Position numbers and translations under genes: made by a program. From the NCBI GenBank assembly GCA_007833815.1, contig CP033464.1:2241501-2305500 (forward strand): a stretch of DNA of 64,000 nucleotides, read 5' to 3'. Below the pieces are notes generated by a model that saw only the letters and a program-made list of their open reading frames with translations, made no database searches and was not told the DNA's origin. The stretch comes from Brevibacillus laterosporus (lineage in GTDB: Bacteria > Bacillota > Bacilli > Brevibacillales > Brevibacillaceae). This document shows, piece after piece, positions 37 to 27,172 of this stretch (within the stretch, counting starts at the first letter, position 1; every line of letters begins with the position of its first letter).

Positions 37-399
37 ATGAAAGAATGCGATAGCTTAGAAGCGGTTGAACAGGATTTACAAACATACCCGCTTTGTCTTG
101 TCTTCATTAAATCTAAGAATTGCGGTGTCTGCGATGCTGTTGAACAGAAGCTGGATATATGGCTATTAAATGAACAGCACCCAAATCCTTTACATGCTAT
201 TAAAGCATCTATAGATAAACTTCCTGAACTTTCGGGGAGATTTTTAGCGTTTTCCGGGCCTACCATACTTGTGTTCGTCTATGGCAAAGAGATATACCGC
301 CAAGCAAGGTTCATCCAAATGCAAGAACTGAGTGAGACGCTCCTACAAGCCAAAATTATGGTAGAACAAGCAGAAATGAAAGGTCTTAGTGAAAAATGA
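37..399 (+). CDS. Thioredoxin-like protein
   Basis: A 120-residue protein with the thioredoxin-fold signature: a hydrophobic strand ([14 protein letters not shown], about residues 19-32) ending in a CGVC redox motif, followed by helix and the cis-proline region (FSGPTILVF) near residue 74. It has no signal peptide or membrane segment, so it should be a cytoplasmic thiol-disulfide or thioredoxin-like adaptor. An AGGAGG site about 10 nt upstream supports the ATG. Its stop overlaps the start of the kinase gene (ATGA), so the two are translationally coupled. Its role in the injection locus is unknown; redox tuning of the kinase or a component is only an inference. Confidence 0.8.
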
Positions 400-1385
400 A
401 GAGAGGTAAGATCGTGAAATCGGGTAACAAGGAGAAGGGATTGCCTAAAAGAATACGCCTCCATGGACAATATCAGATTAAAAAAATGATTTCGCAAAGC
501 GAGCTGTCTATCGTGTATACAGCACGGCAATTAGGGAGTAAATATACACGTGTCGTTAAAGAGTTTTTTCCAAAGGCACTTGCCTTACGTGATCTTGATA
601 ATAAGACGCTTTTCTGCCGGCTTCCTTCTTTGCAGGATAAATATAACGAATTGATGCAGGCATTTACTAGAGAAGCGGAAATGATAAAAGGACTGAATCA
701 TCCTAACTTTGTATCATATGTTGACTTCTTTGAGGAGAATGGTACAGCTTATTTAGTAATGAATTACTGCGAAGGGATGACACTGGATCGTTATGTACAG
801 GAAACGGAGCAACTGTATACCGCGGAAGTTATTGAAAAGACATGGCTACCGCTTGTGAATGCCATCGATTACCTACACAAACAAGGTATTATTCATCGCG
901 ATATTAAACCTAGTAACATTATAATCAGCTCGTCTGGGAATCCTATCCTGATAGATTTTGGTTCAGCCATCCCTATGAGTCAAGAAGGCCAAGCAAGCAA
1001 ACAAACAATTGTAACCACAGCGGGTTATTCTCCCTTAGAATTTTATTCAGAGAAGTCAAAGCAAGACGCACGCTCTGATTTGTATAGTCTTGCCGCGACG
1101 CTTTTCTTCTATATTAATAGGAATTCTCCTACGGATGTTACTCAACGTTTATTTGAACATCCAACAGATGGAATACATATGCCTTCTTCTATCGTTACTC
1201 CTATGCTGGCACGAGTCATTCGCTGGGGATTAGCAGTCCAAGCTGACAAGAGGTGTCCCACGTTAAACTGGTTCAAGCGTGCCTTGTATGCAGAGGCGCT
1301 TATTTGGAAAAGTAGAGAGAGGTTGATTCCTGCATCAAAGCAAAAAACAACCGCAACTACTTCATCATCTGGCAAACCATCTTAA
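396..1385 (+). CDS. Serine/threonine protein kinase (PpkA-like role)
   Basis: A 329-residue Hanks-type kinase. A degenerate glycine loop is followed by the ATP-binding Lys in VVKEFF (about K55), a C-helix Glu near residue 95, the catalytic HRDIKPSN loop (about 167-174), DFG (about 187-189) and a GYSPLEFY activation-segment end. Key catalytic residues are intact. There is no transmembrane helix or PASTA domain; the C-terminal tail is Ser/Thr rich. The ATG overlaps the upstream stop; a GTG at 414, better spaced from GAGAGG, is an alternative start. Together with the two FHA and two PP2C-type genes downstream it makes a complete phospho-switch, by analogy with PpkA-PppA-Fha of T6SS. It is convergent with the VWA gene, only 8 nt away. 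Confidence 0.9.
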
Positions 1386-1393
1386 CGGTGAGA

Positions 1394-3430
1394 TTATATG
1401 GGGGTAGGAACGTCCGAATACAGCTGAGAATTCACTTTAACGGCTTTATATCGCAATTCAATCTCTGTAATTCCATCCTCAAACGTAATGTACAATTTGT
1501 CATTATAGGTGAGGATTTCTTTTTTGTTGGTACGAAGTAGAGTGGTGCCGCGTACCAATGTGCAGTTGGAAGTGTTTTTTACCAATAATGTCCCATTTTT
1601 GCTTGCCTCGAACACAATGGATTCTGCTTCTGGCAACGGCTCATTTACGTTTAGACTTCTAAACAGCTCCTTAAGCGTAATCTTGCGTTGAGGGAAGGAG
1701 GAGAGTGGCCAGTAGGTAACTGGAATATCATTTCCACTAGCAGTTTGTAAAAAGTACCCTTCCAATTTTCCAGATAGCATGGGTTTAGGTCGAACGATCA
1801 GATAAATGACTCCTCCAATGAGAGCGACAGCCAACAAAATGCCACCGATTAGCAGGTATTTGTCCCACACAGATGTAATGGTAAGGGATAATTCCGACGT
1901 AACTAGCTCACCATCCGGATCAGTAGCTGTTATTATCAGAGTGGTTGTTCCTGTTGCAAGTGGGGCAATATGCAAAGTTTGGTCTTGAATGGATGTGCTT
2001 GTTACTGTTGCATCAGGAGCATTTATGATCTGGTAAGTGAGGATATCCTGATTAGCATCAGTAAAATATTTGCGCAGATCAATCCCTGCTTCTCCTGATT
2101 CTTTAGAGAGGGAGATTGTGCGCTGTGCAGTCGCTTGCGGTGCCACATTGCCTACATGTAGCTTTTCTACAGAGGTTTCCCGATAAAAGTCTGGACCTTC
2201 CATTCTGATTTTCCACGTATAATCCCCAGATTGTTTGAAGACATGCTCCAGCTTCCATTCATCCCCAACCAAATTCATCAAGCTTCGCTGTTCTTGTTTT
2301 GTAGCTGTATGGAAGGTAATAAATTCAGCCTTTAAGGTTTGATTAACATCTTGATCGGTAAATTTCTTGCTTTGAGAATCAATGAGGTGGGCAACAATGC
2401 TAGTGGCTTGTCCTTTTTGTGTTTGATTGGACAGCACTGGGGCCTGTATATCCAGATTGTAGGTACCTAATAAATTAATTTTTACTAAGTTACCAGGTGT
2501 ACCTCGGAATTTAAGGTTTACGTTCCCTTTCGGTGGTTGCCCGACTTTTAAGAGGGAGTATTTATTTGATTCAGTAAATTGGATACTTTTTGCTTGGGAA
2601 AATAATTGAGCTTCTTTAACGGGGTGCTCTGATAACAAAATGATATTTGCTTCATTCATGCTTCCATTAGGAATGGAAAGCGTCACATCTTGTAAAGCTC
2701 CAGTTGCAGTAACGGCAGCAACAGAAATCAGTGTAGATTGAATTTGTTTAGCAAAAATTTTGTTGAAAATTTCAGGTAAATCCTCGGCGCTATCTGTAAT
2801 GAATGAAGTGCCACCTGTCTCGGTTGCAATCCGCTTTAACTCCGCTTGATTAACTGACCCGTCTTGATTTAGACCAATTGTATAAATGGGGAAGCCTTTT
2901 GCCTTGGCTTGATTAATTGCTTTGTCAACGTCTTTGTTTGAATCCGCTACGCTCCTCCCTTTGGACATAGGTCCGAAATCGGTACCTCCATCTGACAGCA
3001 GAAGTAGGAAAGGACGATTTCCACTCTCAACAGGTTTGGCTATTAACTCAGTACCTGTCAACAGACCAAGTCCGAGGTCTGTATAACCTGAGCGTGGCAA
3101 AGTGGAAAGGGCTTTTTTTATCTCATTTTTTTTGTCTTTCATTGAGATTGGTGTTAATGGCTTAGTTTTGACAATTTTGTGATTATAAGCTACAAATCCT
3201 ACCCTAGTTCGGTCTGCATTGCTCATATCCATAAATAGATTGACTACTTCTGCGGCTATGCCTTCTTTGTCCGTTTCTTTCATGGAATAACTGGTATCCA
3301 ATACAAATATCGCATCAATACCCCGATTAGGGTCAGCCTTGGCCAACGCTCGGGGAGCTTCTAGTATGCAAGAAAAGGTGATCCCTAAAAGCAGAGCGCA
3401 TATGGCAAGATACATAGTGGAATTACGCAT
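1394..3430 (-). CDS. Secreted/membrane VWA-domain protein
   Basis: A von Willebrand factor A protein, 678 residues from the chosen ATG. That ATG is preceded by GAGGAAA at good spacing; the open frame extends upstream to a TTG at 3481 without a usable site. A signal peptide (MRNSTMYLAICALLLGITFS, cut near ALA) precedes a VWA domain with the MIDAS motif DTSYSM, a T in VGFVAYN context and LLLSDGGTD. Ig/cadherin-like beta domains follow, then one transmembrane helix (YLLIGGILLAVALIGGVIYL) and a cytosolic beta-rich tail of about 110 residues that could be FHA-like. In T6SS, PpkA carries kinase and VWA in one chain; here they are separate neighbours. It is transcribed away from the sheath operon and could sense the envelope. 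Confidence 0.85.
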   Translation of the reverse strand: MRNSTMYLAICALLLGITFSCILEAPRALAKADPNRGIDAIFVLDTSYSMKETDKEGIAAEVVNLFMDMSNADRTRVGFVAYNHKIVKTKPLTPISMKDKKNEIKKALSTLPRSGYTDLGLGLLTGTELIAKPVESGNRPFLLLLSDGGTDFGPMSKGRSVADSNKDVDKAINQAKAKGFPIYTIGLNQDGSVNQAELKRIATETGGTSFITDSAEDLPEIFNKIFAKQIQSTLISVAAVTATGALQDVTLSIPNGSMNEANIILLSEHPVKEAQLFSQAKSIQFTESNKYSLLKVGQPPKGNVNLKFRGTPGNLVKINLLGTYNLDIQAPVLSNQTQKGQATSIVAHLIDSQSKKFTDQDVNQTLKAEFITFHTATKQEQRSLMNLVGDEWKLEHVFKQSGDYTWKIRMEGPDFYRETSVEKLHVGNVAPQATAQRTISLSKESGEAGIDLRKYFTDANQDILTYQIINAPDATVTSTSIQDQTLHIAPLATGTTTLIITATDPDGELVTSELSLTITSVWDKYLLIGGILLAVALIGGVIYLIVRPKPMLSGKLEGYFLQTASGNDIPVTYWPLSSFPQRKITLKELFRSLNVNEPLPEAESIVFEASKNGTLLVKNTSNCTLVRGTTLLRTNKKEILTYNDKLYITFEDGITEIELRYKAVKVNSQLYSDVPTPI

Positions 3431-3665
3431 GGATTTCCTCATCTTGACTTTTAACACATCCTTTGCAAGATATGATCTCAAAATATAAATCGGTCATTAT
3501 GTCCTAAAAATGAATAGAAAAAATGGAAAACAGGAAAATAGAACCAAAAAAAGGCGAAAACAACTGATTTTTGCAACGAAAAATAGGCGTGTAAGGTAAT
3601 AAGTACCAATCTAAGTTTTTTGAAAACGGAAAATAAAGGCATAAAGTCCTGATTTTTTAAAATGA

Positions 3666-3695
3666 TTGACAGTGACGAAAAAAGTTGATTAATAT
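3666..3695 (+). promoter_or_regulatory. Sigma-A-like promoter for the sheath operon
   Basis: TTGACA at 3666-3671 is followed after 18 bp by TAATAT at 3690-3695, about 190 nt upstream of the sheath start. The perfect -35 box makes it the best candidate; the -10 matches TATAAT only partly. Confidence 0.55.
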
Positions 3696-3735
3696 AAATT
3701 GCGAAAGGTTTTAGGGTAATTATGGCAGGAAAATA

Positions 3736-3765: not shown

Positions 3766-3883
3766 CAGTATTGTTTGGGACCGATTACCCCTGAATAATT
3801 ATGACTTTTTATGCACGTGCAATTATTCACATGTAGGTCTACTTATTGTTAATACCTCAGCGAAACATAGAAAGGAGCAGATT

Positions 3884-6052
3884 ATGGACATTATTTATCA
3901 AACCAACCGAACGATGCTTTTTGAGGAAATAAATCCAGAGAAGCTGGATCTTATTACCATTGTAGGTGATGTCAAAGGTATAGATAGTCTGAGTGATGAG
4001 AAAATCAAAGAAATCAATCAGCATCTGCTTATTAAAAACTTCGACGAATTTTTGGACAAATTCGAACCTACTGTTTATTCGTTTTACAATGCAGCTAATC
4101 AAAAAGTGATGTACACACTGAAAAAGCCAGAATCAATCGCAGATGATTGCATCACGGAGATAAAGGTTAACCAGCATAATGATTTTCTGAAAATGTTATT
4201 TACCTTGATTGATACGAAGCGCAGTCAGGGTATTACCAACGTAGACTTTAAGTTTGAAAATTTACTAGATATGATCTCTCCGAAAAAAGTCATGGATGAT
4301 ATTAGACAAGTTCGCAAAGAGATTCATTACATGTACACCGAGTACGATAAATTGGATGATGGCGATCCAAAGAAACTTGATATGGGCGATAAGCTCAATA
4401 GCATGTTTGAAGAGGCAAGCCAGAACTACAACAATGTCATGGCAATGCTTCCACTAGCGATTGAGGATATTAAAACAAGACTTTTATTAGGTGGTTCTTC
4501 TGAGGAGAACAAATCCGAGGCGATACAAATCGGGATGCTTACTATCGGGGAGAGCGGTGAATTAAAGATCATCGAAGCCCCTAAAAGCGATAGCAATGAA
4601 CTCATGCTATTAGACGATAGTAGTGGCACTGGTTTGGTAACGGTTTTTGAAGATGATTATGAATCTATTACGGAGACACCTTCTTCTTACGTAAAAGACT
4701 TAGTAGTGCGCACTTTCTGCCCATTGCCAGCTATTCAGACGGAAGTCGACATTGAGACTGAAGTCCAAAACTATAATACATATCTGGAATTTTACAAAAA
4801 CGCGAAAGACGACTTTGTAAAAACAGTAAAACCTCTCGTGGAGAAAATTCTTGGCGTGAAAATGTTTTTTGATCAATATGCCACCAAGAACAAGGGCATG
4901 GTTCCTACTCTTCTAGTCACCAATACAAAGCTAGATATGTTGGTAAAGAGTAGCAATATTCCACGTCTAGAAACCTATCTAAACACCGTTAACTCCAAAA
5001 ATGATTTTACAGATACAATCTGGTTCGGTATTGTACCGTCCGTTGAATTAGAGACCGCAGGCAGAGTAAAAGTAAGCCGCGAGCGTTTCAAAGGCAACGA
5101 AAAGGTTGTAAAGCAGGACGGAAATACATTGGAATCACTCTCGATGCTTCTAAATGTGGTGAAAGAATACAAGGTACAAGTCTTCTTCAGCTTTGAAACA
5201 GGGGAAGAGACCACCTTTAACAGCATGGCCACAGCGGGCATCGATAAATATATCGATAAGTGCAACCCACTTGTTCGCAAGGATTACAGTGAATTCGCAG
5301 TACCTTGCGTACCTAACTTTACAGTCATCCCGAAAGATAAGTCTGGGGTAGTAATCGACAGCCGTATGCTGCAAACCGATTCAGGTGCACAGCTCTCGAA
5401 AGAAAAAGAAGACATCTTAAAGCTATGGATTGAAGGAGTCTATATTGGTTCTTCTTATGTAGCAGCAGGTGTGGTGGCTTCCTATCAGTGCCCTGATTAC
5501 ATGCGCGAACTATTTAAAAACATCAACAAAGAGTACCCAGGCGTGCGCTTCGATATTGAAGCCGGAGATAACAGCTTACGCGCTGTCACCACAATGGCTA
5601 AAGAAATCTCTGGATTTACCAACAACATTAAGGATTCGATCAACCGTAAAAACTTCGGCTTTGTCTTCTCATCAGAGAATGCACAGCTTCAAGAAAAGGA
5701 TATTAAACGCATTACGGTTTACAAAGCGAGAAGCCTTGCTTTGGCCGATGATGGATTTGATCCTATTTATAAAACTCTCGTTAGTACTTACATCGAACGT
5801 ATTCTGCGTTTCCAGACTGGAGATTTCAAACACGAAAATATCGTGAAATTCTTCAGTAACAACCCGAGTAGCCAAAAGAGCAAGTGGATTAGTGGGCGCG
5901 GGTATATCAATTCCATCGTTCAGGATGGAGACGATATTAGCTACATCATCGACGATAAGAGCAATTTGTGCCACATCGATCTGGTCTTTAACGGAAACGT
6001 GAAGAACCTTGAAGTGATGATTACCAAGGGCACAACTCCTGTGAAAGCGTGA
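3884..6052 (+). CDS. Contractile sheath-like protein
   Basis: A 722-residue protein without signal peptide or membrane helix, started by ATG after AAAGGAG. No short motif is diagnostic, but the last third reads like a phage/T6SS sheath: an insertion-domain return (LWIEGVYIGSSYVAAGVVASY, the place of the SGxxAGVYA segment of tail sheaths), a SINRKNFGFVF strand in place of the NPIR-type segment, a helix YKTLVSTYIERILRF, and a final beta strand HIDLVFNGNVKNLEVMI like the C-terminal handshake strands of sheaths. It lies directly upstream of a tube-like protein, the usual sheath-tube order. The chain is longer than a TssC, so it may hold both TssB- and TssC-type regions. Function is inferred from layout plus these features. 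Confidence 0.65.
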   Translation: MDIIYQTNRTMLFEEINPEKLDLITIVGDVKGIDSLSDEKIKEINQHLLIKNFDEFLDKFEPTVYSFYNAANQKVMYTLKKPESIADDCITEIKVNQHNDFLKMLFTLIDTKRSQGITNVDFKFENLLDMISPKKVMDDIRQVRKEIHYMYTEYDKLDDGDPKKLDMGDKLNSMFEEASQNYNNVMAMLPLAIEDIKTRLLLGGSSEENKSEAIQIGMLTIGESGELKIIEAPKSDSNELMLLDDSSGTGLVTVFEDDYESITETPSSYVKDLVVRTFCPLPAIQTEVDIETEVQNYNTYLEFYKNAKDDFVKTVKPLVEKILGVKMFFDQYATKNKGMVPTLLVTNTKLDMLVKSSNIPRLETYLNTVNSKNDFTDTIWFGIVPSVELETAGRVKVSRERFKGNEKVVKQDGNTLESLSMLLNVVKEYKVQVFFSFETGEETTFNSMATAGIDKYIDKCNPLVRKDYSEFAVPCVPNFTVIPKDKSGVVIDSRMLQTDSGAQLSKEKEDILKLWIEGVYIGSSYVAAGVVASYQCPDYMRELFKNINKEYPGVRFDIEAGDNSLRAVTTMAKEISGFTNNIKDSINRKNFGFVFSSENAQLQEKDIKRITVYKARSLALADDGFDPIYKTLVSTYIERILRFQTGDFKHENIVKFFSNNPSSQKSKWISGRGYINSIVQDGDDISYIIDDKSNLCHIDLVFNGNVKNLEVMITKGTTPVKA

Positions 6053-6171: not shown

Positions 6172-6597
6172 ATGGGTTTCAGACTAAAAGTAGAAGGTGC
6201 AGAAACAATTGAACTAGGAATGGATAACATCCAAACCGTTGTGTATGACACTGACACTCCAGATGACTCAAATGCTAGATCAACAGATGTAGGAGCTACA
6301 CTACGCCTTACTGGTAAAATCATTACTTCTACCGATGGTGATAGCGCTGATGACACGATGAAGCTAGCTCTGTGGTCCTTAGTTCCTGCTGAAAAAGCGG
6401 ACTGCTACAGAAAAGTAACACTAGAAGTAATCGCGGCTGATCAAGTAGTTCGCAAAATCCACATGCCAAATGCATTCGTGGTAGATTACACAGAGCGTTT
6501 TGGCGATACAGAAGGTGTTGGTGAGTTCGTTCTATTCATCAAACAGAAAAAAGACAAAACCGAATTTACCAAAATTGAAGGCGGCTATGCCGTTTAA
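6172..6597 (+). CDS. Hcp/tail-tube-like protein
   Basis: A 141-residue all-beta protein from the ATG at 6172, which follows AAGGAGG at ideal spacing; the longer open frame from 6049 runs back into the sheath 3' end and the hairpin and is not used. The chain (MGFRLKVEGAETIELGMDNI..., then TLRLTGKI and FVVDYTERFGDTEGVGEFVLFIKQ) has the short alternating strands and single connecting region expected for Hcp/gpV-fold tube subunits, with a length in the usual range. It sits between the sheath-like gene and a strong terminator, which suits a highly expressed structural subunit. No signal peptide. The assignment rests on size, beta content and position. Confidence 0.65.
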   Translation: MGFRLKVEGAETIELGMDNIQTVVYDTDTPDDSNARSTDVGATLRLTGKIITSTDGDSADDTMKLALWSLVPAEKADCYRKVTLEVIAADQVVRKIHMPNAFVVDYTERFGDTEGVGEFVLFIKQKKDKTEFTKIEGGYAV

Positions 6598-6688: not shown

Positions 6689-7135
6689 ATGAAAAGTTAC
6701 TATGACATACTTGGTGTTTCCAAACATGCCTCCGAAGCGGAGTTGAAAAAGGCGTATCGGCAATTAGCAAAAAAATACCATCCCGATGTGAATGCAGGGA
6801 GTAGTGAAGCAGAACAGCGCTTCAAGGAAGTTCATGAAGCTTACACAGTGTTAAAAACCGAAGAGTCACGGGCAGCGTACGATGCGAAGCTGGATCAGCG
6901 AACACAAAAGAAAGCTACATCCACCCAAGGAACAGGCCAGAAATCGACGGAACGCAAGACAACACAAGGATATCAGGGATTTGATCCGCGAGATATGGAA
7001 CGGAATTTCTCCCAATTCTTTGGATTTGATCCAAAAGATAAAAAAGGGAATCTTCATAAAAACGGATCATCGTCTAAGAATCCTATGGATACCTCAGCGA
7101 TCTTTCAGAGTTATTTTGGACCGCGAAAAAAATAA
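6689..7135 (+). CDS. DnaJ-domain co-chaperone
   Basis: A 148-residue protein beginning with a complete J domain ([20 protein letters not shown] to about residue 66) with the HPD motif in KKYHPDVN that stimulates Hsp70 ATPases. The rest is a charged, Gln/Ser/Lys-rich tail ([20 protein letters not shown]) without zinc fingers or the C-terminal substrate domain of true DnaJ, so it is a dedicated J-protein. A plausible partner is the Hsp70/actin-like ATPase at 13291 in the same locus. Ribosome site GAGAGGGAGAGAG precedes the ATG. Confidence 0.9.
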
Positions 7136-7271: not shown

Positions 7272-7829
7272 GTGCAAGCAAAAGCGAAAAAGAACCATTC
7301 CATCTGGGTCATAATCATTGATGTACTTATATTTGTCATTGCAATTAATATCTTGTATTTCACGTTTGGCATTCAATCAGATCCAATTATGAAATGGTTG
7401 GTTAGTTTTCTAGTACTTATTTCTATTATTTTTTATGCTACGCAAAAAAATAAGAAGCTGCTGCCTAAGCAACAACACAAGCAGCCGGAAGGTATTACAA
7501 AGTTAGTTTTATTGGATGAAGAAGGCGAAAGAGTAAAAGAGTGGTACATACAGGGGGAAACCTCTTTGGTGATCGGAAAGAACTCCCGCAACGGCGAGGT
7601 TGATATAGATCTATCAGATACGGAATATGCATCGCTTATCAGTACTCATCATGCAGTGCTTAACCATGTTGGAGGGAACTGGTTCATTGAGGACAATGAT
7701 TCTCATAATGGAATTGGAATTAAAAAGGCGAACAACACTCGGACGAGCAAGGTAGAGGTCGAAACAAGGCAACAAATTCATACAAATGATCTCATTTACA
7801 TAGCAAATACACGAATATTAGTGAAATAA
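7272..7829 (+). CDS. Membrane-anchored FHA-domain protein
   Basis: A 185-residue protein starting at GTG after GTAGAGGA. Two transmembrane helices (about residues 10-30 and 40-58) form a hairpin, leaving the C-terminal domain cytosolic. That domain (about 72-185) is FHA: VIGKNSRNGEVDIDLSD, SLISTHHAVLNH and FIEDNDSHNGIGI carry the G-K, S-x-x-H and N-G elements that bind phosphothreonine. It should dock threonine-phosphorylated partners of the local kinase at the membrane, as Fha does in T6SS. It follows the DnaJ gene by 136 nt and heads a run of signalling genes. Confidence 0.85.
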   Translation: MQAKAKKNHSIWVIIIDVLIFVIAINILYFTFGIQSDPIMKWLVSFLVLISIIFYATQKNKKLLPKQQHKQPEGITKLVLLDEEGERVKEWYIQGETSLVIGKNSRNGEVDIDLSDTEYASLISTHHAVLNHVGGNWFIEDNDSHNGIGIKKANNTRTSKVEVETRQQIHTNDLIYIANTRILVK

Positions 7830-7863: not shown

Positions 7864-8379
7864 ATGAGTTTAACGAGATGTACGAATGGCCATATGTTTA
7901 GCACAAGAAAACACGGTAATACATGCCCCTATTGCAACATTGTCGTAGACCAAGCACCACGGGGAGACAACAAAAGTCAAGTACGCCAACCCGACGAAGA
8001 AAAGACCATGCCTTACTTGGGAGAGACAACGGGTATTGAACCTGTGACAGGTTGGTTAGTCTGTATCGAAGGACCACAGCAGGGACAAGATTATCGGATC
8101 ATGGCAGAGAAGAATTTCATTGGACGAGCAGAGGAGATGCATATTCGCATCATTGGAGATAACGCGATATCTAGGCGCAATCATGCAGTGATTGTCTATG
8201 ATCCGAAAAAACGTAACTTTTACCTGTTGCCAGGAGATGCGTCCGGACTTGCTTACCATAACAATGAGGCTGTCTATTCACCAGTAGAGTTAACAGCATA
8301 TGACGTCATTCAGCTTGGTCAAAGTAAATTTATCTTTATCCCGTTGTGCGGCGTCCATTTTGAATGGGAAAACAATTGA
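7864..8379 (+). CDS. Zinc-ribbon FHA-domain protein
   Basis: A 171-residue soluble protein. The N-terminus is a short metal-binding ribbon (CTNGHMF...CPYC, about residues 6-25), then a linker and an FHA domain with FIGRAEEMHIRI, the conserved NAISRRNHAVIVYD and a variable LPGDASGLAYHN. Thr/Glu-rich EEKTMPYLGETTG in the linker resembles the phospho-threonine motif of FHA self-regulated proteins such as GarA and could be the kinase site; that is an inference. It lies 34 nt after the membrane FHA gene and just upstream of the phosphatase gene, so all three are probably one transcript. Confidence 0.85.
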   Translation: MSLTRCTNGHMFSTRKHGNTCPYCNIVVDQAPRGDNKSQVRQPDEEKTMPYLGETTGIEPVTGWLVCIEGPQQGQDYRIMAEKNFIGRAEEMHIRIIGDNAISRRNHAVIVYDPKKRNFYLLPGDASGLAYHNNEAVYSPVELTAYDVIQLGQSKFIFIPLCGVHFEWENN

Positions 8380-8389
8380 GGGTAGGTTG

Positions 8390-15939: not shown

Positions 15940-16033
15940 GTGGAGGAAGGAACAGACAGGACAGGGATGAAGCGCTGTCCTCGTCAGCTAGCTTGAAGGA
16001 AGCAACCAAGGCATGCACAAAGGAGGGCGCCAC

Positions 16034-18954: not shown

Positions 18955-18989
18955 ACGGACAAACTTCTATGGCAGAGAGGAGGAGAAGG

Positions 18990-20264
18990 ATGGACAAGAC
19001 AGAAGCGATGCCTCATTTTATGACAAATGTAGTGGAGCCAGCACGATTGAGAGCATTAATGCGCCTAGAGCAGGATTTTCAGACAAACAAAAACGCATTG
19101 GCTACACAATGGACGATTGCTTTTCAACGCATCTGCAAACAGCTAGGTGGCGAACAGATTCGAAAGGACAAAGCAAGTATTGGGCATATCACCTTTTCGT
19201 TGTTGCGGACGGAATTAGCAGTAGGGCGAGCGATTTATTTGGTGGAGGCGACAGACAGCTCTTGGTTTTTTGATCGGAATCCTTGCCAAACAGAATACGA
19301 TGCTAGCTGGGCTTTAGCGTATTTGGAACAGCTGAAGGCTGAAATTAATGGCGGTAGTAAGGCGTATATGGGTGCTATTACGCTTCCAGACGTGGAGCAA
19401 TTGATATTGAGAGAAGCCGTTCATTTTCATCAGTACGTGATTCAGTTGGCTAGGTATGCGTTGCCTATGGCGATTCAATCTCAGGAATTTGTGGAGCTAT
19501 CCATAGAGGATATCGTTGAAATACGTGTCGGCGAATACATGGATGTTAGCGAAGTTGTATATAAAATAGATCGACGCACGCGAGATGCCCAATCTGTTAG
19601 GGACTGGATCGCTGAAGGCAGCAAACAGGAGTATGCCTATGAAGTTTTTGACCGTTTAGACCTGTCAAAAGGAGAGTATTCCGAGCTAGATTTTCGCTAT
19701 TCGCGTTTTGAACAAAGTGATCTATCTGCTAGTCGATGTAACGGCTGTGTATTAATTGGCACACGATGGAATCATTCACGACTAGCTGATGCAGATTTTT
19801 CCCATAGTATGTTGTCTGGTGCGGATTTTTGTCAGAGTGAGTTAACAGGGGCAGACTTCCGAGGAATCCAAGCTTCTCAGGGGTTGTTGGAACCAGATAG
19901 CTGGGAAATGCCGGGCTTTTGGGAGATTACCTTTGCAGAAGCGAATGTGGAGGGAGCTAGTTTTGTCGGGGCTCAATTGGCGGGAGCTAAATTTTCCAGA
20001 GCCAATCTAGTAGACGTAAATTTTGCTGGAGCAGATTTGGCAGACGTCAGCTTCACAGATGCTAATTTACGTGGAGCTGTGTTTGTCGGGGCTAGCATAG
20101 TTGCTGTCGATTTTACTGGAGCGGATGTAGAAGGTGCAACCTTTTCAGCACGAGATCGAGGCAATGTGAATTTAGACGAGCAGCAACAAGCCACTGTTAT
20201 TTGGATGGAAGCCGAGAGCGAGGGGGCGTACCTAGATGAATTATTTTATTCTGTCCCAAGATAA
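18990..20264 (+). CDS. Pentapeptide-repeat protein
   Basis: A 424-residue protein from an ATG that follows GAGAGGAGGAG; the ATG at 18969 is less likely. The N-terminal half is helical and unrecognised (MDKTEAMPHFMTNVVEPARL...). From about residue 225 it has pentapeptide repeats with A(D/N)LxxA-type units (DFSHSMLSGADFCQSELTGA, then ANLVDVNFAGADLADVSFTD), interrupted by a short insert, forming a right-handed quadrilateral helix. In T6SS loci such proteins occur beside VgrG genes as adaptors. The 3' end overlaps the next gene by 29 nt. Confidence 0.85.
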   Translation: MDKTEAMPHFMTNVVEPARLRALMRLEQDFQTNKNALATQWTIAFQRICKQLGGEQIRKDKASIGHITFSLLRTELAVGRAIYLVEATDSSWFFDRNPCQTEYDASWALAYLEQLKAEINGGSKAYMGAITLPDVEQLILREAVHFHQYVIQLARYALPMAIQSQEFVELSIEDIVEIRVGEYMDVSEVVYKIDRRTRDAQSVRDWIAEGSKQEYAYEVFDRLDLSKGEYSELDFRYSRFEQSDLSASRCNGCVLIGTRWNHSRLADADFSHSMLSGADFCQSELTGADFRGIQASQGLLEPDSWEMPGFWEITFAEANVEGASFVGAQLAGAKFSRANLVDVNFAGADLADVSFTDANLRGAVFVGASIVAVDFTGADVEGATFSARDRGNVNLDEQQQATVIWMEAESEGAYLDELFYSVPR

Positions 20265-20793
20265 TCGCCTGTTAGACGCTGTGGAGCCTGTAGGACTTAC
20301 TAGCCTTTTAACCAAAGAGATGCTAACCGAGGAGAAGGTGCATGTCTTAGATGAACTGGTATTGCAGGTCCCGATTCAGCAGAAAGAATATGTCACCTAC
20401 GTAGATTATATCCAACGCCCCATCCCATTGTTGTCAGATCGATTAAAACAATTGGTGGTCAAATATGTACCGAAGATGATGTGCAAGGCTGTGGTACTGG
20501 CAGATCGGGAGCAGATGAGACAGGATTTGTACTGGGTGTTTGTGTCCCCGAGTCTAGCCTGCCTATCAGATCAAACCGAGTTTTATCAGGACGGAACAGT
20601 AAAACGGCTCATGTTAGATCCGGACAAAATTGGTAGACGAACGTTCTTCCGCATAGATGGCATTCGTGAAGAGCATCTTGTAGTGAATCTGGGACTGGCG
20701 GAAAGTATTTTGCGTCGGGACTTTACAGGCATCCAGCTTCAAAAAATAGAGCTGGAGGTCCAGAGAGAGGATGAGATGAAATGGCCCTCATAG
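20236..20793 (+). CDS. Imm11/DUF1629-like protein
   Basis: A 185-residue soluble protein whose ATG lies inside the end of the pentapeptide gene. MNYFILSQDNRLLDAVEPVG at the N-terminus, IPLLSDRLKQLVVKYVP in the middle and YWVFVSPSLACLSDQTEFYQDG resemble the Imm11 family (DUF1629), often found beside VgrG or polymorphic toxins. No toxin is immediately linked to it; it could be an adaptor between spike and tip or an immunity protein. It overlaps the DUF4280 gene by 13 nt, so pentapeptide, Imm11-like and tip genes are a coupled set. Confidence 0.6.
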   Translation: MNYFILSQDNRLLDAVEPVGLTSLLTKEMLTEEKVHVLDELVLQVPIQQKEYVTYVDYIQRPIPLLSDRLKQLVVKYVPKMMCKAVVLADREQMRQDLYWVFVSPSLACLSDQTEFYQDGTVKRLMLDPDKIGRRTFFRIDGIREEHLVVNLGLAESILRRDFTGIQLQKIELEVQREDEMKWPS

Positions 20794-21209
20794 AAGACGT
20801 GGAAATAGCAGGTGGGGAAGGAGCCAAGAAAAGCTATGTGGTGGCAGGCGCTATCCTTACTTGCACCTTTGGCACCCAAAAAAGTCGCTTGAAAACCCCG
20901 TTAAGCCATGGCGTATTTGTCAAGGACAAGGCTCAAATGAACATCAAGGATTTTGTTCCTAATGTGAATATCATGCCCTTTGGTAGATGCGGTAACTTAG
21001 CAAATCCGGAGGTAGCAGCGGCGACGGAAGCAAACGGTGGTTACTTAAAGCGTATGCCATGCATGCCAATTGTAACCATGCCGTGGATTGGGGGCAAGGA
21101 AAATAAGCTTATCGAGGATGCCCCGGTTCTTCTCAACGATTGTACTAACATGTGCTTACATTGTGGTGGACAAATAAGCATCATCGACGACGGACAGGAG
21201 TTGGACTAA
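20781..21209 (+). CDS. DUF4280 PAAR-like tip protein
   Basis: A 142-residue protein that matches the DUF4280 pattern: YVVAGAILTCTFGTQKSRLK at the N-terminus, then INIMPFGRC-type NVNIMPFGRCGNLANP, LKRMPCMPIVTMPWIGGKEN and a terminal CTNMCLHCGGQISIIDDGQ with clustered Cys and His. DUF4280 proteins are PAAR-like cones that sharpen VgrG spikes and often carry or adjoin effectors. It sits between plain VgrG and VgrG-Rhs genes. A broken partial copy reappears at 52988 fused to Rhs sequence. Confidence 0.85.
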   Translation: MALIEDVEIAGGEGAKKSYVVAGAILTCTFGTQKSRLKTPLSHGVFVKDKAQMNIKDFVPNVNIMPFGRCGNLANPEVAAATEANGGYLKRMPCMPIVTMPWIGGKENKLIEDAPVLLNDCTNMCLHCGGQISIIDDGQELD

Positions 21210-21250
21210 ACCTGTAAGAAATCATACCACCCATTGGGAGGGGGGATTGT

Positions 21251-24200
21251 GTGAAAACGGCAGTTAACGTAGCGGGATATGGAAATCTGCAAGTAGTGTC
21301 TCCCTACGATATACAAACATTGCAAGAGCTACAACTGGTCAAAGGAGCAAACGATCACGCCAAGCTATATCTAACCGGAATCATTCCGGAAGAGAAGAAA
21401 GACAGTTACATTGCAATGGCAACGAGTAGCGACATCATAGAGGTGAATGAAGTAGAGAATGGTAGCAAGGTAAGGAATCTGTTTACCGGACTCGTAGAAG
21501 ATATCGGGGTTCGTGCTGTCCGTGGCATCTACTATCTAGAGCTAGAAGGCATCTCATTCACCAGCAAACTAGATATAAAAGAGAAGACAAGATCCTTTCA
21601 AGATAAGAACATGACGTACACGGCCTTACTAGATTTAATTGTAAAAGATTACCCTGGATCAGACTACCTCGATTATGCTACAAACGGTGCCAAATTAGAA
21701 GGATTCACCCTGCAATATAAGGAAACAGATTGGGCGTTCATCAAGCGAATGGCGTCTCGTTTTGGTGCGGTTTTATTACCAGAAACAAACTCCAAGACGC
21801 CGAAGTTCTCGCTTGGTGTCCCAGATGGAAAAGTAGGACAACTGACAGACTACCACTATGGTGTAGCAAGATCACTAGACAGATACACGGAAGCCACCAC
21901 GGGACATGGTAGCGAGCTAGACGAGACAGCCTTCACCCACTATACCACAGAAAGCGGTCAGTATTTTGCGTTGGGAGACAAGGTACTGTTTCAAGAGAAA
22001 GAGCTGACGGTAGCAGCATCTACAGCACGTTTTACCGAGGGTACCTTGTTATATACCTATACCCTTTGCCAGGAAGAGGGCGTGCAGCAGAATCCGATTC
22101 GAAATGAACAACTAACGGGTGTCTCGATCGAAGGAAAGATTATCGAGATTCGCAATGATACTGTCAAGGTCCATCTCGATATCGATCAATCCCAAGACAA
22201 AGGCAAGGCTTGGTGGTTTCCGTATTCCTCCGTCTACTCAACAGAAGGCAGCAACGGTTTTCACTGCATGCCACAACAGGGAGATGCCGTCCAGGTTTAT
22301 TTCCCAACGAGCCAAGAAGACGAGTCTGTAGCGATGAGCTCCGTCCGTAAAACAGGACAAGACTCTCCCAAGATGGGCAATCCAAGCGAGAAATATTGGG
22401 GCACCAACTTCGGCAAGGAGATGAAGCTAGGCAGCTCGGATTTTGTGCTCACCGCGAAGGACAGTAAAGAAGGCAAGATGTTTATTAAGCTGGATGTCGA
22501 AGACGGCATCGAGATTCACAGTGATAAAGCCATAATGTTTTCAGCGGAGCAGGACTTGGAGATTGAGACAGATACCAAGTTTGAAATTAAGGCTCAGGAA
22601 GCGATTTATCTGCTGTGTAAGGAAAGTAGCATTGTGCTAGATGGAGAGACGGATATTCAGGGCACGGTTTTAAAGGTAGATGGTCTGATCAAATCGCCCG
22701 TCTCGGTAGCTGACCTAGAGCCGGAGCCAGAACCAGAGGACCCAGCTCCGCCACCACCACCGCCAGAGGAAGAGAAGGGCTTCTGGGGGAGCTTGCTAGA
22801 TGGTGTGCAGTTGGCGCTGGATGTGGTGGGGATGATTCCAGTAGTTGGGATCGTTGCCGATGTTGCTAATGCGGGCATCTCGGTAGCTCGTGGAGATTAC
22901 GCAGGAGCGGCTCTTTCCTTAGTGGCGTGTATTCCCTTTGCTGGAGCAGCCGCGACGGCTGCCAAGCTCGGAACGAAAGCTGCGAAGGCAGTAAAAATGG
23001 GAAAAGCAGCGGCCAAAGTAGCTGATAAAGCCGCTGATGTAGCAAAAGCGGTCACAAAGATAGCGGATGTAGTAGTAGGAAAGGTATATACCGCCTCGCG
23101 AAAGCTAAAAAGCAGTATCAATCAACTAGAAGCTGTTCAGAAGATAAAAAGCAGTATGAAGCTCAAGACAATGGCAAACAGTCGTGTTGGCAAAATTGGA
23201 AAAGCCGTTACAAAAGAAGTAGCTACAGAAGTCGGATACCAAGTGGTAGAAGAGGTGGCTGGTGATGTAGTATCCTCTGTTTTGGGAGTAATAGGTGGTA
23301 AAAAGAATAAATATAAAGGGAAGAAGAAATTATCTAAAAAAGAGCGCAAAAAAGCCGCTCAACGGGCAAAAAATGCAGATGCCAATAAAAAAAGCTGTGT
23401 AGACGATCCCATTCATGCTGGCTCCGGATCGCAATTTATCATTCATCCTACCTTAAAGCTGTATGGAGCTGAGACATGGACGTTCGAGCTACACTACAAT
23501 TCGTTGCTTCTCCAGCAGGGTGTGCTTGGTAAAGCTTGGACGCATAATTATGAAATGCATGCCGACATGGAGCGTATTGACCAGGGTGAGATTACCATCT
23601 GGTGGAATACAGGCAGAAGAAATGTGTTTATGCAGACGGAAGCAGATCGTACTCTGTACCGTTCAGAAGATGTCGACATGATGTTCTACGAGCTTCGCCG
23701 TCTGGAGAATGGTTTTGAGCTGTTCAACCGAAATACGCGAGAAACCTACTACTTTAAACGAAATGGACAGGTAAGTAAACAAACGAATGCCTTGGGGCAA
23801 GCGTTAACCTTTATCCATGATTCCTCTAATCGTCTTGTCCAAATGACAGATGTGATTACAGGTCGCTCTCTATCCTTAACATATGGACAAGACGGGCTAT
23901 TATATAGCGTTTATGATGCTTATCGCAGTGTGCAATTCGATTACAACGAGTCTCGTCGCCTCAGCCAATTCGTCGATCCGAATGGAACCATAAGCGAGCT
24001 AACGTATACCGAACAAGGACAGATCGAGTCCCTTACTGTGGATGGAATTTTGCAATATCGCAACGCCTACGACCATGAGGAACGGGTTATTGCGCAGACC
24101 AATGCCTTAGGACTAGCCTCTCAGTTCACCTATGACACAGAAAGCATTCCTGGTTCCATAATTACAACTTTCACAGACCGTCTGGGTGCTACAGAGGTCA

Positions 24201-27172
24201 TGATTCATGATGAACGCATGTTACTTATGGAGAAACAAGAAAGAGACGGTAGCCGTGTTTCGTATGAATATAATAGCCGAGGTCAAATGATTGCGGAAAC
24301 AGTAGGGAAAGAAGAGACGACCACCTACCAGTACGATGAGCGAGGCAATCTGATTCAAGTAGTTGATCCACTAGGGAATCAAACCAGCTATGTATACAGC
24401 ACGGACGATTTGTTGTTGTCCGAGATCAACGCAGAGGGTGGCATCACGAGCTACACGTATGACGAACGTGGACGTTTAGTAAGCATGACCCGTCCCGACG
24501 AAAGTCACTCTGAGATTGGTTACAACGAACAGGGACAACGCGTAAGCTACACCGATTCTAAGGGTGTGACGAGCCGCTATCGGTACGATGACAAAGGCTA
24601 CCTCACGGCTGTCTATGACGGAGAAGGTCGTGTCATACAAGTAGGCTACGACGAGGTAGGGCGTATCGCTTCGTTCCAAGATGGACGAGGTGGCAAAGTA
24701 CGACGCACCTATGATGCTAACGATAACATCGTACAAGTAATCGACCCGCTTGGACGCCCATATTCCTTTGCCTATGATGCCTTCGATCAACGCGTGGAAG
24801 AAACGATGCCTTCAGGAGCAACCACCCGCTATCGTTATCATGTGTTGGGATCGATGGAAAGCGTAACGGACGCGTTAGGACAGACAACCACCTATCGATA
24901 TGACACAGAGGGCCAATTGATAGCTGTTATCCAACCAAATGAAGCGGAAACTCGCTATGAGCGGGATCAAATGGGTCGCATTGTCTCCATTACCGATCCA
25001 TTAGGTCGAACCGAAAAAGCCGCTTATGATGAAACCGGACGCCTCCTTCAGGTTTGGGATGCGCTGGGAAATAGGGTACAGGACGTCAGCTACGATGCAG
25101 GCGGTAATCTTGTTTCCGCTACAGATGCCTTAGGTCATACAACGTTGTACGGTTTTAACAAATTATATCAATGCACCAAGAAGACAAATGCTCTTGGACA
25201 AAATACGACTTATGCCTACGATGCCGTTGCTCGTCTGACCGAGGTCATGGAAAGCGATGCCGCGATCTATCGTCAGCAATATGACAGCGAAGGACGTCTC
25301 GTTAGCTATACCGATGCCAATGACAACGAAACGACGCTTCGGTACGATCGGAGTGGGCTAGTGGTAGAGGAACAAAATGCCACCGGGGAAGCTACCCATT
25401 TTGCCTACGACGAACGAGGCTGGATGAACAAACGTACCAATGCGAGAGGGCAAGAAACTCACTATCGCTACGATGCCGCGGGCCAGCTTCTTGAACAAAA
25501 GGATGAGGTTGGTACGGTACGCAGGGAATACGATGCAGACGGCAATCTCGTCAAGGTACAGGAAGAAGGAGCAGGCAAGAAGCATCGAGTATACGACCTG
25601 TTAGGACGTGTCACTGCTTGCACAGATAGCTACGGAAATACCATTCAATACCGGTATGACCAAAATAGCCAGCTGACCCACCTCATCTATCCAGATGGGA
25701 AGATCGTCCGTTATACCTATGATTTGGCGGGACAGCTCACGGAGGTAAAAGACTGGGCAGGGCGTCGTACTACCTACACCTACGATGAAAATGGACGACT
25801 GATCAAGACAGTCCGACCAAATGGAACCATCGAGCAACGCAGCTATGACGTTGCTGGACAAATGGTGCGTCTGTGGGATCAAAACCGCCAAGGTGTGATG
25901 CTCCAGAAATACCGCTACGTGTACAATGAGCTAGGACAAATTGTGCAAGAAGAGGAAAAGCAGTATACCTACGACGCTTTGAAACGACTCGTAAGCGGTG
26001 AATGGCCGGGTGGTCGCGTCTGGTATAGCTACGACCAAGGTGGAAACGTCACGGGAATCGGGACGGTAGAGGCAACACCGAAGAAGGTCATGGGATATGG
26101 AAAAGACAACAGACTTTCCGTAGTGAATGAACATCCAGTAGAGATGGATGCAGACGGCAATCTACTCACATGGACAGAGAATGAGGAAGCTCATACCTAT
26201 GTGTACGATGCCCGCAATCGACTAGTCCGCACAGGTCAAGCACGCTACACCTATGATGCCGAGCACGTACGTACCTCGATGACATGGAAAGGAAAGACGA
26301 CACGCTATGTAGTCGACCAAGGGGAAGTATTTAGCCGTGTACTCATGGAGCTAGGGGAAGACGGTAGTCCGAAGGCCTATTATGTGTATGGACAAGGCTT
26401 GATCGGTAGAGAGGATGCACAAGGGAATTATTTGTCGTATCATACGGATATGCGTGGTAGTACCACAATGTTGAGTGATTGGGGAGGACGAGTCACCGAC
26501 CGCTACAGCTATGGTGTGTATGGCGAATTAGAACAGCACGATGGTACAACCTCCCAACCGTTTTGTTATAATGGTAGAGATGGTGTCATGACCGACCCGA
26601 ATGGGTTGTATTACATGAGGGCGAGGTACTATCACCCGGGACTGAAGCGTTTCCTGAACCGAGATATCTTACCAGGGGACGTGACGGAAGGGCAGACCTT
26701 TAACCGATTTGCCTATGTGAATGGTGATCCAGTAGGGTTTATTGATCCGCTGGGGCTGGCGGGGCTTGGGACTGGGCAGTGTCAGAAGGGTAAACCTAAC
26801 ATCTCACAAAGGCATGATGAAATTGCTCATGATGGATATTATGGAAGAAAATCCAAAAGAACAGAAGCTCATAAGAGTGCTAGTAAGAATAACAGAGCGT
26901 ACATTAAAGAAAATAGGGTGCCTAAAGACAATGAAACATTCCTAATGGATAGTTCCTTCATACGAACCAAAATAGAAATTAAAGGTGCTAAAGTATACAA
27001 ATACGAGGAACGTTACTATTATCGTGACACTCTACATGAAGGGAAAGCTGCTCATATTGAGGTATTTGATAGTACAGGGAAAAAGCATCTTGGTGAGGCT
27101 GATCCAATTACGGGAAATTTAAATACTACAAAAGCTGATCCTAATAAAAAAATTGACAAATATCTAAAGTAA
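21251..27172 (+). CDS. VgrG-Rhs fusion with colicin E3-like toxin tip
   Basis: A 1973-residue effector spike; GTG start after GGGAGGGGGG. Residues 1-480 are VgrG (TDWAFIKRMASRF; OB region IEGKIIEIRNDTVKVHLDID). A Pro/Glu linker (about 495-512), a hydrophobic Gly/Ala-rich stretch (about 514-572) and a basic linker lead to the Rhs cage from DPIHAGSG (about 717), with dozens of YD repeats, ending in the Rhs core end NRDILPGDVTEGQTFNRFAY...FIDPLGLAGLGT (about 1835). The 136-residue tip ends DTLH (D1926, H1929), E1937, HLGEADPITGNL and ADPNKKIDKYL, closely following the colicin E3 16S rRNase (WDSQHGDLE, HLGSFDPKTG, DPKRNIKKYL). The catalytic Arg of E3 is Lys here. It should cut ribosomal RNA in the target cell. 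Confidence 0.88.
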   Translation: MKTAVNVAGYGNLQVVSPYDIQTLQELQLVKGANDHAKLYLTGIIPEEKKDSYIAMATSSDIIEVNEVENGSKVRNLFTGLVEDIGVRAVRGIYYLELEGISFTSKLDIKEKTRSFQDKNMTYTALLDLIVKDYPGSDYLDYATNGAKLEGFTLQYKETDWAFIKRMASRFGAVLLPETNSKTPKFSLGVPDGKVGQLTDYHYGVARSLDRYTEATTGHGSELDETAFTHYTTESGQYFALGDKVLFQEKELTVAASTARFTEGTLLYTYTLCQEEGVQQNPIRNEQLTGVSIEGKIIEIRNDTVKVHLDIDQSQDKGKAWWFPYSSVYSTEGSNGFHCMPQQGDAVQVYFPTSQEDESVAMSSVRKTGQDSPKMGNPSEKYWGTNFGKEMKLGSSDFVLTAKDSKEGKMFIKLDVEDGIEIHSDKAIMFSAEQDLEIETDTKFEIKAQEAIYLLCKESSIVLDGETDIQGTVLKVDGLIKSPVSVADLEPEPEPEDPAPPPPPPEEEKGFWGSLLDGVQLALDVVGMIPVVGIVADVANAGISVARGDYAGAALSLVACIPFAGAAATAAKLGTKAAKAVKMGKAAAKVADKAADVAKAVTKIADVVVGKVYTASRKLKSSINQLEAVQKIKSSMKLKTMANSRVGKIGKAVTKEVATEVGYQVVEEVAGDVVSSVLGVIGGKKNKYKGKKKLSKKERKKAAQRAKNADANKKSCVDDPIHAGSGSQFIIHPTLKLYGAETWTFELHYNSLLLQQGVLGKAWTHNYEMHADMERIDQGEITIWWNTGRRNVFMQTEADRTLYRSEDVDMMFYELRRLENGFELFNRNTRETYYFKRNGQVSKQTNALGQALTFIHDSSNRLVQMTDVITGRSLSLTYGQDGLLYSVYDAYRSVQFDYNESRRLSQFVDPNGTISELTYTEQGQIESLTVDGILQYRNAYDHEERVIAQTNALGLASQFTYDTESIPGSIITTFTDRLGATEVMIHDERMLLMEKQERDGSRVSYEYNSRGQMIAETVGKEETTTYQYDERGNLIQVVDPLGNQTSYVYSTDDLLLSEINAEGGITSYTYDERGRLVSMTRPDESHSEIGYNEQGQRVSYTDSKGVTSRYRYDDKGYLTAVYDGEGRVIQVGYDEVGRIASFQDGRGGKVRRTYDANDNIVQVIDPLGRPYSFAYDAFDQRVEETMPSGATTRYRYHVLGSMESVTDALGQTTTYRYDTEGQLIAVIQPNEAETRYERDQMGRIVSITDPLGRTEKAAYDETGRLLQVWDALGNRVQDVSYDAGGNLVSATDALGHTTLYGFNKLYQCTKKTNALGQNTTYAYDAVARLTEVMESDAAIYRQQYDSEGRLVSYTDANDNETTLRYDRSGLVVEEQNATGEATHFAYDERGWMNKRTNARGQETHYRYDAAGQLLEQKDEVGTVRREYDADGNLVKVQEEGAGKKHRVYDLLGRVTACTDSYGNTIQYRYDQNSQLTHLIYPDGKIVRYTYDLAGQLTEVKDWAGRRTTYTYDENGRLIKTVRPNGTIEQRSYDVAGQMVRLWDQNRQGVMLQKYRYVYNELGQIVQEEEKQYTYDALKRLVSGEWPGGRVWYSYDQGGNVTGIGTVEATPKKVMGYGKDNRLSVVNEHPVEMDADGNLLTWTENEEAHTYVYDARNRLVRTGQARYTYDAEHVRTSMTWKGKTTRYVVDQGEVFSRVLMELGEDGSPKAYYVYGQGLIGREDAQGNYLSYHTDMRGSTTMLSDWGGRVTDRYSYGVYGELEQHDGTTSQPFCYNGRDGVMTDPNGLYYMRARYYHPGLKRFLNRDILPGDVTEGQTFNRFAYVNGDPVGFIDPLGLAGLGTGQCQKGKPNISQRHDEIAHDGYYGRKSKRTEAHKSASKNNRAYIKENRVPKDNETFLMDSSFIRTKIEIKGAKVYKYEERYYYRDTLHEGKAAHIEVFDSTGKKHLGEADPITGNLNTTKADPNKKIDKYLK

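Follow-up and report, generated by a model that had tools for sequence, protein, structure and literature searches.

A locus at positions 396..27172 of a 64-kb stretch (hereafter, the window) of the 5.76-Mb Brevibacillus laterosporus genome encodes a Ser/Thr kinase, a VWA protein, a conserved protein of 722 residues (the 722-aa protein), a 141-residue tube protein, a DnaJ-domain protein, two FHA and two PP2C-type proteins, an Hsp70-like protein, and a spike module with VgrG, a DUF4280 tip and a VgrG-Rhs effector (Table 1). We consider it likely that the locus encodes an injection machine. The original prediction, made from the sequence of the window, had placed a phosphorylation-controlled, contractile-injection-like locus here, and both its extent and its gene set hold when judged by open reading frames (ORFs) and family matches. 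Family searches covered 20 proteins of the locus. Matches over the curated cut-off of the family (hereafter, the cut-off) were obtained for Pkinase, VWA, DnaJ, FHA in both FHA proteins, PP2C in the first phosphatase (8300-9238), Phage_GPD in VgrG, DUF4280, RHS_repeat, and DUF6531, which confirms the kinase, VWA, two FHA, first PP2C, VgrG, DUF4280, and Rhs genes that had been named. The DnaJ gene, the Hsp70/actin-like gene, and the succession of displaced Rhs tips at 28-54 kb had not been listed before.

Conservation of the gene set

Relatives of the 722-aa protein were collected by scanning 84,980 species, each represented by a single genome, for a pattern of the family. The scan yielded 541 stretches, 348 of which encode a relative, one gene being able to yield more than one stretch; the best match, in a collection from which very near records may be missing, is in Brevibacillus laterosporus (96%). 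The protein was found in 13 of 398 genomes sampled across the phylum, the identical 13 being returned by a profile search of that sample, and a profile search found relatives in 52 of 380 genomes of one Clostridia-side class. The spread is thus wide, and the gene set is present in Brevibacillus, Paenibacillus, Lysinibacillus, and some Clostridia. Neither viral contigs, scanned for the pattern, nor 50,697 phage records and 72,556 plasmids, searched by tblastn, gave a 722-aa relative.

Gene-order counts rest on the best 80 of the 348 stretches, each cut at a distance of 10 kb from the 722-aa gene, or earlier where the contig ends. The order 722-aa, tube, DnaJ, FHA1, FHA2, PP2C1, PP2C2, p428, p235, Hsp70-like is unbroken in all 80 loci and complete in 76; conservation of the gene order had been proposed as a check in the original prediction. 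Counts for single genes were 80 for the tube (one a fragment), 79 each for DnaJ, FHA1, FHA2, PP2C1, and PP2C2, 77 each for p428 and p235, 76 for the Hsp70-like gene, 71 for the kinase, and 56 for the VWA gene. Three of the 4 incomplete loci (L084, L086, and L097) run out at contig ends. In the divergent families G310, G137, and G431, blocks are reshuffled yet confined to one stretch, and the FHA and PP2C genes remain near the machine where blocks are rearranged. VgrG and the 722-aa protein occur in an identical set of 20 among 100 related genomes, and DUF4280 occurs in those 20 and 3 others. Spike genes were examined in 16 longer stretches of relatives; the full set is present in 8, with a varying order in some, and a partial or weak set in 5. 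The most conserved products by median identity are the tube (87%), the 722-aa protein (83%), and FHA2 (81%), followed by the next product at 61%. These genes form a genuine, conserved set.

Table 1. Features of the locus and its surroundings, in window coordinates.
Feature	Position	Strand	Matches and remarks
Weakly thioredoxin-like ORF	37-399		Overlaps kinase start by four bases; 1/80 related loci
Ser/Thr kinase, cytosolic (no TM-like stretch)	396..1385	+	Pkinase E 2.6e-36
VWA protein, divergently transcribed	1394..3481	-	VWA E 5.6e-21; TM-like stretches 22-40 and 545-563 (N- and C-terminal)
722-aa conserved protein, candidate single-chain sheath	3884..6052	+	No Pfam/NCBIfam family
141-aa tube protein, Hcp fold	6172..6597	+	Relatives and fold
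DnaJ-domain protein	6689..7135	+	DnaJ E 1.2e-26
FHA1, two N-terminal TM-like stretches, FHA putatively cytosolic	7272..7829	+	FHA E 2.8e-8
FHA2, soluble, very conserved	7864..8379	+	FHA E 1.5e-6
PP2C phosphatase 1 (PP2C1), one TM-like stretch	8300..9238	+	PP2C_2 E 9.9e-13
PP2C2, degenerate PP2C-like part, TM-like stretch, TPR region	9290..11161	+	PP2C_2 E 0.003 (below cut-off); TPR_11 E 8.2e-7
p428, core protein, baseplate candidate	11292..12578	+	77/80 loci; 9/15 clade-B stretches
p235, core protein, baseplate candidate	12557..13264	+	77/80 loci; 12/15 clade-B stretches
Hsp70/actin-like ATPase candidate, 882 aa	13291..15939	+	HSP70 E 0.014 and DnaK E 0.0017, both below cut-off
p265, conserved protein	16013..16810	+	Alignment of 13, including two remote (G469, G339)
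p230, weakly DcrB/DUF1795 (EagR-like), possible effector chaperone	16841..17533	+	Pfam DcrB E 0.035
VgrG spike	17530..18954	+	Phage_GPD E 7.6e-10; TIGR03361 E 1.7e-7 (below cut-off)
Pentapeptide-repeat protein, spike module	18969..20264	+	Pentapeptide E 1.2e-26; accompanies spike genes in relatives
Imm11-like protein, spike module	20236..20793	+	Imm11 E 0.014; clade-B relative E 1.7e-4; both below cut-off
DUF4280 PAAR-like tip	20781..21209	+	DUF4280 E 2.4e-33; IglG model NF041248 E 1.5e-9 (below cut-off)
VgrG-Rhs effector	21251..27172	+	RHS_repeat E 1.1e-104; DUF6531 over cut-off; Phage_GPD 1.2e-4 (below cut-off)
ORF 3' of effector, candidate immunity gene	27238..28062	+	Position only
Displaced Rhs tips in a row, interspersed with small ORFs and transposase-like genes	28151..54435	+	8 junction copies; ORFs

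TM, transmembrane; TM-like stretches were assigned from hydropathy.

Tube, spike and Rhs cargo

The tube gene is listed as an ORF of 182 residues from a GTG; the conserved protein has 141 residues and starts at 6172. It has the Hcp/tail-tube fold, which is common to the tail-tube proteins of phages and contractile injection systems (CIS), and its first Foldseek match is F. johnsoniae Hcp1. Its relatives match TssD (PF17642), and no Pfam family matched the protein of the window itself. Both its relatives and its fold mark the 141-aa protein as Hcp-like, in line with its earlier description as tube-like. Two tube genes stand in tandem in each of three stretches (L215, L216, and L218) of clade A, the clade of the window described below. 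On a plasmid of the Negativicute Megamonas funiformis (L170:19372-20612), a VWA gene precedes one whose product shares, in its N-terminal part, 38% identity with a relative's tube; no further machine gene was named in the 24 kb shown.

The VgrG models of the type VI secretion system (T6SS) match the VgrG of the window below the cut-off. Of the VgrG-Rhs fusion that had been proposed, the Rhs part is well matched and the VgrG part falls below the cut-off. The EagR-like label of p230 is weakly suggested by its DcrB/DUF1795 matches, which in a PDB profile search (DcrB E 0.14, DUF1795 E 0.58) stand beside an unrelated enzyme at E 0.13. VgrG is fused to an Rhs core with a variable C-terminal tip, the arrangement expected of Rhs polymorphic toxins that VgrG delivers. 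The Rhs-core junction NRFAYVNG[D/N]PVGFIDPLGLAGLG occurs in 9 copies in the window, from 26702 to 54301, which correspond to the intact effector and 8 displaced tips (28151-54435). The displaced tips at 39765 and 41530 are similar to one another, and small ORFs, candidates for immunity genes, and transposase-like genes lie between the tips. The tip of the intact VgrG-Rhs matches Cytotoxic (PF09000), which we take to be a colicin-E3-type ribonuclease, at E 0.0088, below the cut-off; the displaced tip at 49363-49704 matches it at E 2.7e-6, over the cut-off. The displaced tip at 44232-44567 is weakly Tae4-like (E 0.017), and the other tips and ORFs among the ten scanned gave nothing of note. These tip matches point weakly to bacterial targets.

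Several further features touch the cargo. A second DUF4280 match of the genome, partial (profile 18-81), lies at 52961-53350 just 5' of a partial Rhs core. Two closely similar transposase-like frames, one of them shorter (38011-38610 and 42553-43896), bracket part of the row of tips, and a further transposase-like pair lies at 45217-46790; the transposase names were given by eye. A Paenibacillus polymyxa plasmid (L159:11220-19623) carries genes for a pentapeptide protein, two hypothetical proteins, VgrG, DUF4280, a second VgrG-type protein, and a GH-E nuclease fragment, with no core genes in the 29 kb shown. This orphan spike island fits mobile cargo.

Regulators, Hsp70-type proteins and two clades

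The regulators largely keep the motifs of their families. The kinase retains HxDx[KR]xxN in 82/82 and DFG in 80/82 relatives. PP2C1 retains ADG in 90/91 and GDS/GDT in 88/91, and one TM-like stretch is found in 91/91. FHA2 retains IGR in 91/92 and SRx(x)H in 90/92; FHA1 has SxxH in 78/92 and two TM-like stretches in 75/92. One TM-like stretch is present in 83/88 PP2C2 proteins and two in 53/61 VWA proteins. Flanking charges, read by eye, suggest that the FHA and PP2C domains are cytosolic and that the TPR and VWA regions lie outside. Two PP2C proteins had been proposed; PP2C1 is confirmed, and the PP2C part of PP2C2 stays below the cut-off. The slow evolution of the tube, the 722-aa protein, and FHA2 suits binding of FHA2 to the machine itself. 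Kinase, FHA, and PP2C genes share one conserved locus, the gene content that marks threonine-phosphorylation control in T6SSs. PpkA carries a VWA domain.

The DnaJ protein has the HPD motif in 91/92 relatives, and the 882-residue Hsp70-like protein has DxGGGTxD in 87/90. A PDB profile search with the latter family returned designed-protein matches only, which were rejected. A remote relative of the Hsp70-like protein (L137:1243-3825) matches Pfam SrfB at E 3.7e-7, over the cut-off, which suggests a link to the proteins known as virulence factor SrfB. Among the Hsp70 genes near a remote machine is one for a fusion of an Hsp70 ATPase and VWA (L134:10578-12647; HSP70 E 1e-91, VWA E 1.3e-21). Among the baseplate candidates, p265 found no credible match in a PDB profile search, and a match of p235 to HCN channels (E 0.002 over ~100 residues) is regarded as spurious. 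Seven families were also compared by hhalign with TssA/B/C/E/F/G/K/L, Hcp, TagH, and TagF of T6SS loci that lie on plasmids, some of these profiles being single-sequence. None of the matches was significant, and p428, p235, and p265 scored no better against TssE/F/G than other pairs. The method also missed the tube against Hcp, which is positive by fold, so these negatives mean little.

A tree of 51 sequences of the 722-aa family, in which some long branches meet, separates clade A (33 rows, window included) from the monophyletic clade B (18 rows) by one branch with support 100/100. Mean identity is 72% within clade A, 42% within clade B, and 24% between them. Nineteen Clostridia-side stretches were fetched, fifteen of which belong to clade B; most of these 15 extend ~8 kb on either side. 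Their gene order is 722-aa, tube, VgrG, p428, p235, and the genes recognised were the tube in 13, VgrG in 13, p235 in 12, and p428 in 9 of the 15, with p265 recognised in none. Three contigs (L203, L205, and L214) end before p235. An Hsp70 gene directly adjoins p235 in 12/15 stretches, one identified by Pfam (E 7.4e-61) and the rest by similarity to it. Hsp70-type proteins therefore accompany clade B strongly and clade A weakly. Among the new findings, the most telling are the core common to two clades and the presence of Hsp70-type proteins where ClpV would be expected. In two clade-B stretches (L206:6241-8563 and L135:5947-8336), a gene whose product weakly matches DUF4280 and AHH nucleases immediately precedes an Imm11-like gene and the 722-aa gene. 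In the remote member G469, a fusion of DUF4280 and an AHH nuclease is weakly indicated, neither part reaching the cut-off, and an Hsp70-VWA fusion and other Hsp70s lie nearby. One clade-B genome (L210:2992-7531) has two 722-aa-family genes in tandem.

A probable injection machine and its alternatives

The Hcp-fold tube, VgrG, the DUF4280 spike, and VgrG-Rhs are tied by strict co-conservation to the 722-aa protein, p428, p235, and the Hsp70-like protein, which argues for an injection machine. On balance, we favour a cell-envelope machine of Bacillota with a single-chain sheath, a phospho-switch in clade A, and recycling or loading by the DnaJ and Hsp70-like proteins. In such a machine, the 722-aa protein would form the contractile sheath in one chain, and p428, p235, and p265 would form the baseplate. 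The membrane-bound FHA1, PP2C1, and PP2C2, together with the VWA protein, may dock the machine at the single membrane and so replace TssJLM. In clade A, the kinase would phosphorylate a threonine on the docked machine, FHA2 and FHA1 would read the phospho-threonine and promote assembly or firing, and PP2C1 would reset the phosphorylation. DnaJ and the Hsp70-like protein would take over recycling or loading, the work of ClpV in T6SSs, so that Hsp70-type proteins may replace ClpV. The likely role is the antibacterial delivery of swappable Rhs toxin tips. More tentatively, the locus may represent an injector branch native to Bacillota, with a single-chain sheath, Hsp70/DnaJ for the AAA+ ClpV, an FHA/PP2C dock for TssJLM, and, in one clade, a threonine-phosphorylation trigger that resembles the proteobacterial T6SS; the odds of this are lowered by the weak Hsp70 label of the clade-A protein.

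The candidate sheath is suggested by place, size, and a TssB-like hint. The 722-aa gene immediately precedes the tube gene in clades A and B, and the length of 722 residues is near the sum of one annotated TssB (172) and one TssC (498). A stretch of its N-terminal third, NVDFKFENLLDMISPKKVMDDIRQVRKEI, aligns to TssB around VDITFESMDDFKPAAIA (hhalign E 0.11), and the best match of a second TssB profile is an adjacent collinear stretch (E 0.36). Shuffled decoys beat the N-terminal third against TssB in 1/100 (first profile) and 6/100 (second profile) cases, and the C-terminal part against TssB in 54/100 and 52/100. Against TssC, from whose profile one row with two stop codons (L169) was left out, the N-terminal third was beaten by 17/100 and 95/100 decoys and the C-terminal part by 7/100 and 88/100. 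As eight tests were made, the TssB-like N-terminus is a hint only.

A number of observations weigh against this interpretation. The 722-aa protein matches no Pfam or NCBIfam family and has a single PHROGs match at E 0.92; the 29 family members scanned gave scattered single-member Pfam matches, with no common family and no sheath family. No PDB relative was found, the profile matches to NS1 (E 0.011) and spectrin (E 0.29) being weak and unrelated, and no TssC signal is consistent against the shuffled decoys. AlphaFold (AF2) gave no usable model (pLDDT 37, pTM 0.22) from an alignment of 52 sequences that are 77-96% identical to the query. The Hsp70 label of the clade-A protein derives from sub-cut-off matches around one phosphate motif, its PDB profile search, read to E 0.5, returned no DnaK, a clear Hsp70 is seen in clade B only, and the clade-A type was recognised in 1/15 clade-B stretches. 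PP2C2 keeps ADG in only 60/88 relatives and may therefore be a pseudophosphatase. The kinase gene was not found in 9/80 loci and the VWA gene in 24/80, Lysinibacillus loci among the latter, and 3 of the 16 longer stretches have no spike genes. One locus (L109) is a true exception, without p428, p235, and the Hsp70-like gene despite 10 kb past the 722-aa gene. Part of the missing genes is explained by the limits of the 80 loci at 10 kb or at a contig end; in one of the nine kinase-less loci (genome G065), the kinase lies ~12 kb upstream in a longer stretch. Finally, profiles of the kinase, FHA, PP2C, and DnaJ gave no match in the 15 clade-B stretches. The kinase, FHA, and PP2C genes, which the original prediction expected to be co-conserved with the spike genes, accompany the tube in the 80 loci (79/80; kinase 71/80) and have no match in the clade-B stretches, with regulators elsewhere in the clade-B genomes not excluded. 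Since clade B keeps the core without them in these stretches, the core either predates the phospho-switch or is independent of it, and the switch would be a clade-A feature. As a gene set the switch is real; within the stretches covered, it occurs in one clade only.

A secretion machine with tube and spike that works without a contractile sheath would accommodate part of these findings. The 722-aa protein would then serve in the cytosol as a scaffold or as a hub for effector loading, and the export of VgrG-Rhs would follow another mechanism. The lack of recognisable sheath homology, the failed model, and TssC comparisons not convincingly above decoys are as such a machine would predict. The length near TssB plus TssC, the position immediately upstream of the tube gene in either clade, and the N-terminal third beaten by so few TssB decoys (two of eight tests) speak for the sheath, and we regard the sheathless machine as unlikely.

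T6SSs are regarded as machines of Gram-negative bacteria. Of their defining parts, the locus has the Hcp tube and the VgrG spike with a PAAR-like tip; the two-protein TssB/TssC sheath, TssM/IcmF, TssK, and ClpV were not found. Searches of the whole genome gave no match to VipB (PF05943), TssM/IcmF (PF14331), or TssK (PF05936), each with a positive E. coli control, and 5 matches to ClpV (TIGR03345), none over the cut-off; TssC (PF17541) had no match in the genome, nor in any of its controls, so that this silence carries no information. The absence of T6SS parts noted in the original prediction is borne out for TssM and ClpV; TssL and TssJ were not searched for. The locus resembles T6SS subtype i, for which a plasmid of Phaeobacter sp. 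G2 served as yardstick, in its Hcp-fold tube, VgrG, PAAR-like tip, and the presence of TagH (FHA), PP2C, and kinase genes in the locus. It differs from subtype i in having one 722-aa protein in the putative place of TssB/TssC, DnaJ and Hsp70-like genes, and a Gram-positive host, and in the genome-wide lack of the parts above. The tube family is shared with type iii T6SSs of Bacteroidota, which lack TssJLM and have components named TssNOPQR; unlike these, the genome has no ClpV match over the cut-off. The locus could be a divergent T6SS proper, nearest to type iii, whose components have diverged past detection. The TssD matches of tube relatives, the first Foldseek match, and the kinase, FHA, and PP2C genes of the canonical Phaeobacter locus favour this view. 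It is made improbable by the unmatched VipB, IcmF, and TssK despite positive controls and by the lack of ClpV over the cut-off.

The injection machine that we favour is also to be set against a TerY-P-like stress-signalling module of VWA, kinase, PP2C, and FHA proteins whose place next to an Rhs/VgrG toxin island is accidental. The TerY-P triad, which goes with Ter proteins, consists of VWA, kinase, and PP2C, and DnaJ and Hsp70-like proteins suit a stress response. Despite the VWA, kinase, and PP2C genes, no Ter family was found among the 20 locus proteins scanned, and the FHA and PP2C genes lie just 3' of the tube in 79/80 loci and near the machine even when it is rearranged. We consider a chance neighbourhood very unlikely. 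A domesticated phage tail, extracellular CIS (eCIS), or tailocin, with which the locus has the tube fold in common, is hardly credible, as the genome's two Phage_sheath_1 (PF04984) matches (C4:3021953 and C4:5137443) lie outside the window, no 722-aa relative was found in phage and viral collections, and neither a phage-sheath family nor an AAA+ ATPase was found among the 20 locus proteins, the latter absence agreeing with the original prediction.

Compared with eCIS and cytoplasmic CIS (Afp/PVC, Streptomyces CIS), the locus differs also in its DUF4280 tip and membrane-bound regulators; the accessible literature records CIS in Gram-positive Streptomyces. Contractile tail-like structures from mitomycin-treated B. 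laterosporus have been described (PMC11245835); nothing in the accessible part of that report ties them to the locus, and phage-type sheath matches occur twice elsewhere in the genome. A literature search, mostly without subscription papers and without preprints, found no description of this locus, in agreement with the earlier statement that no system of such composition is described. The accessible text of a 2021 survey (PMC8651086) conjectures an "unknown phage-like translocation system" of Firmicutes from Phage_GPD genes beside DUF4280 (PAAR_H2) without surrounding T6SS/eCIS core genes. In that text no core genes are named for the system; the present analysis proposes a core gene set with two clades and regulators. 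The locus fits the conjectured system.

The same survey, in its accessible text, left open how the DUF4280/VgrG spikes of Firmicutes are launched (PMC8651086), and the defined core gene set makes their launch testable. If the proposed machine is correct, threonine-phosphorylation control and contractile delivery would be workable in a monoderm, and an Hsp70 system may substitute for ClpV.

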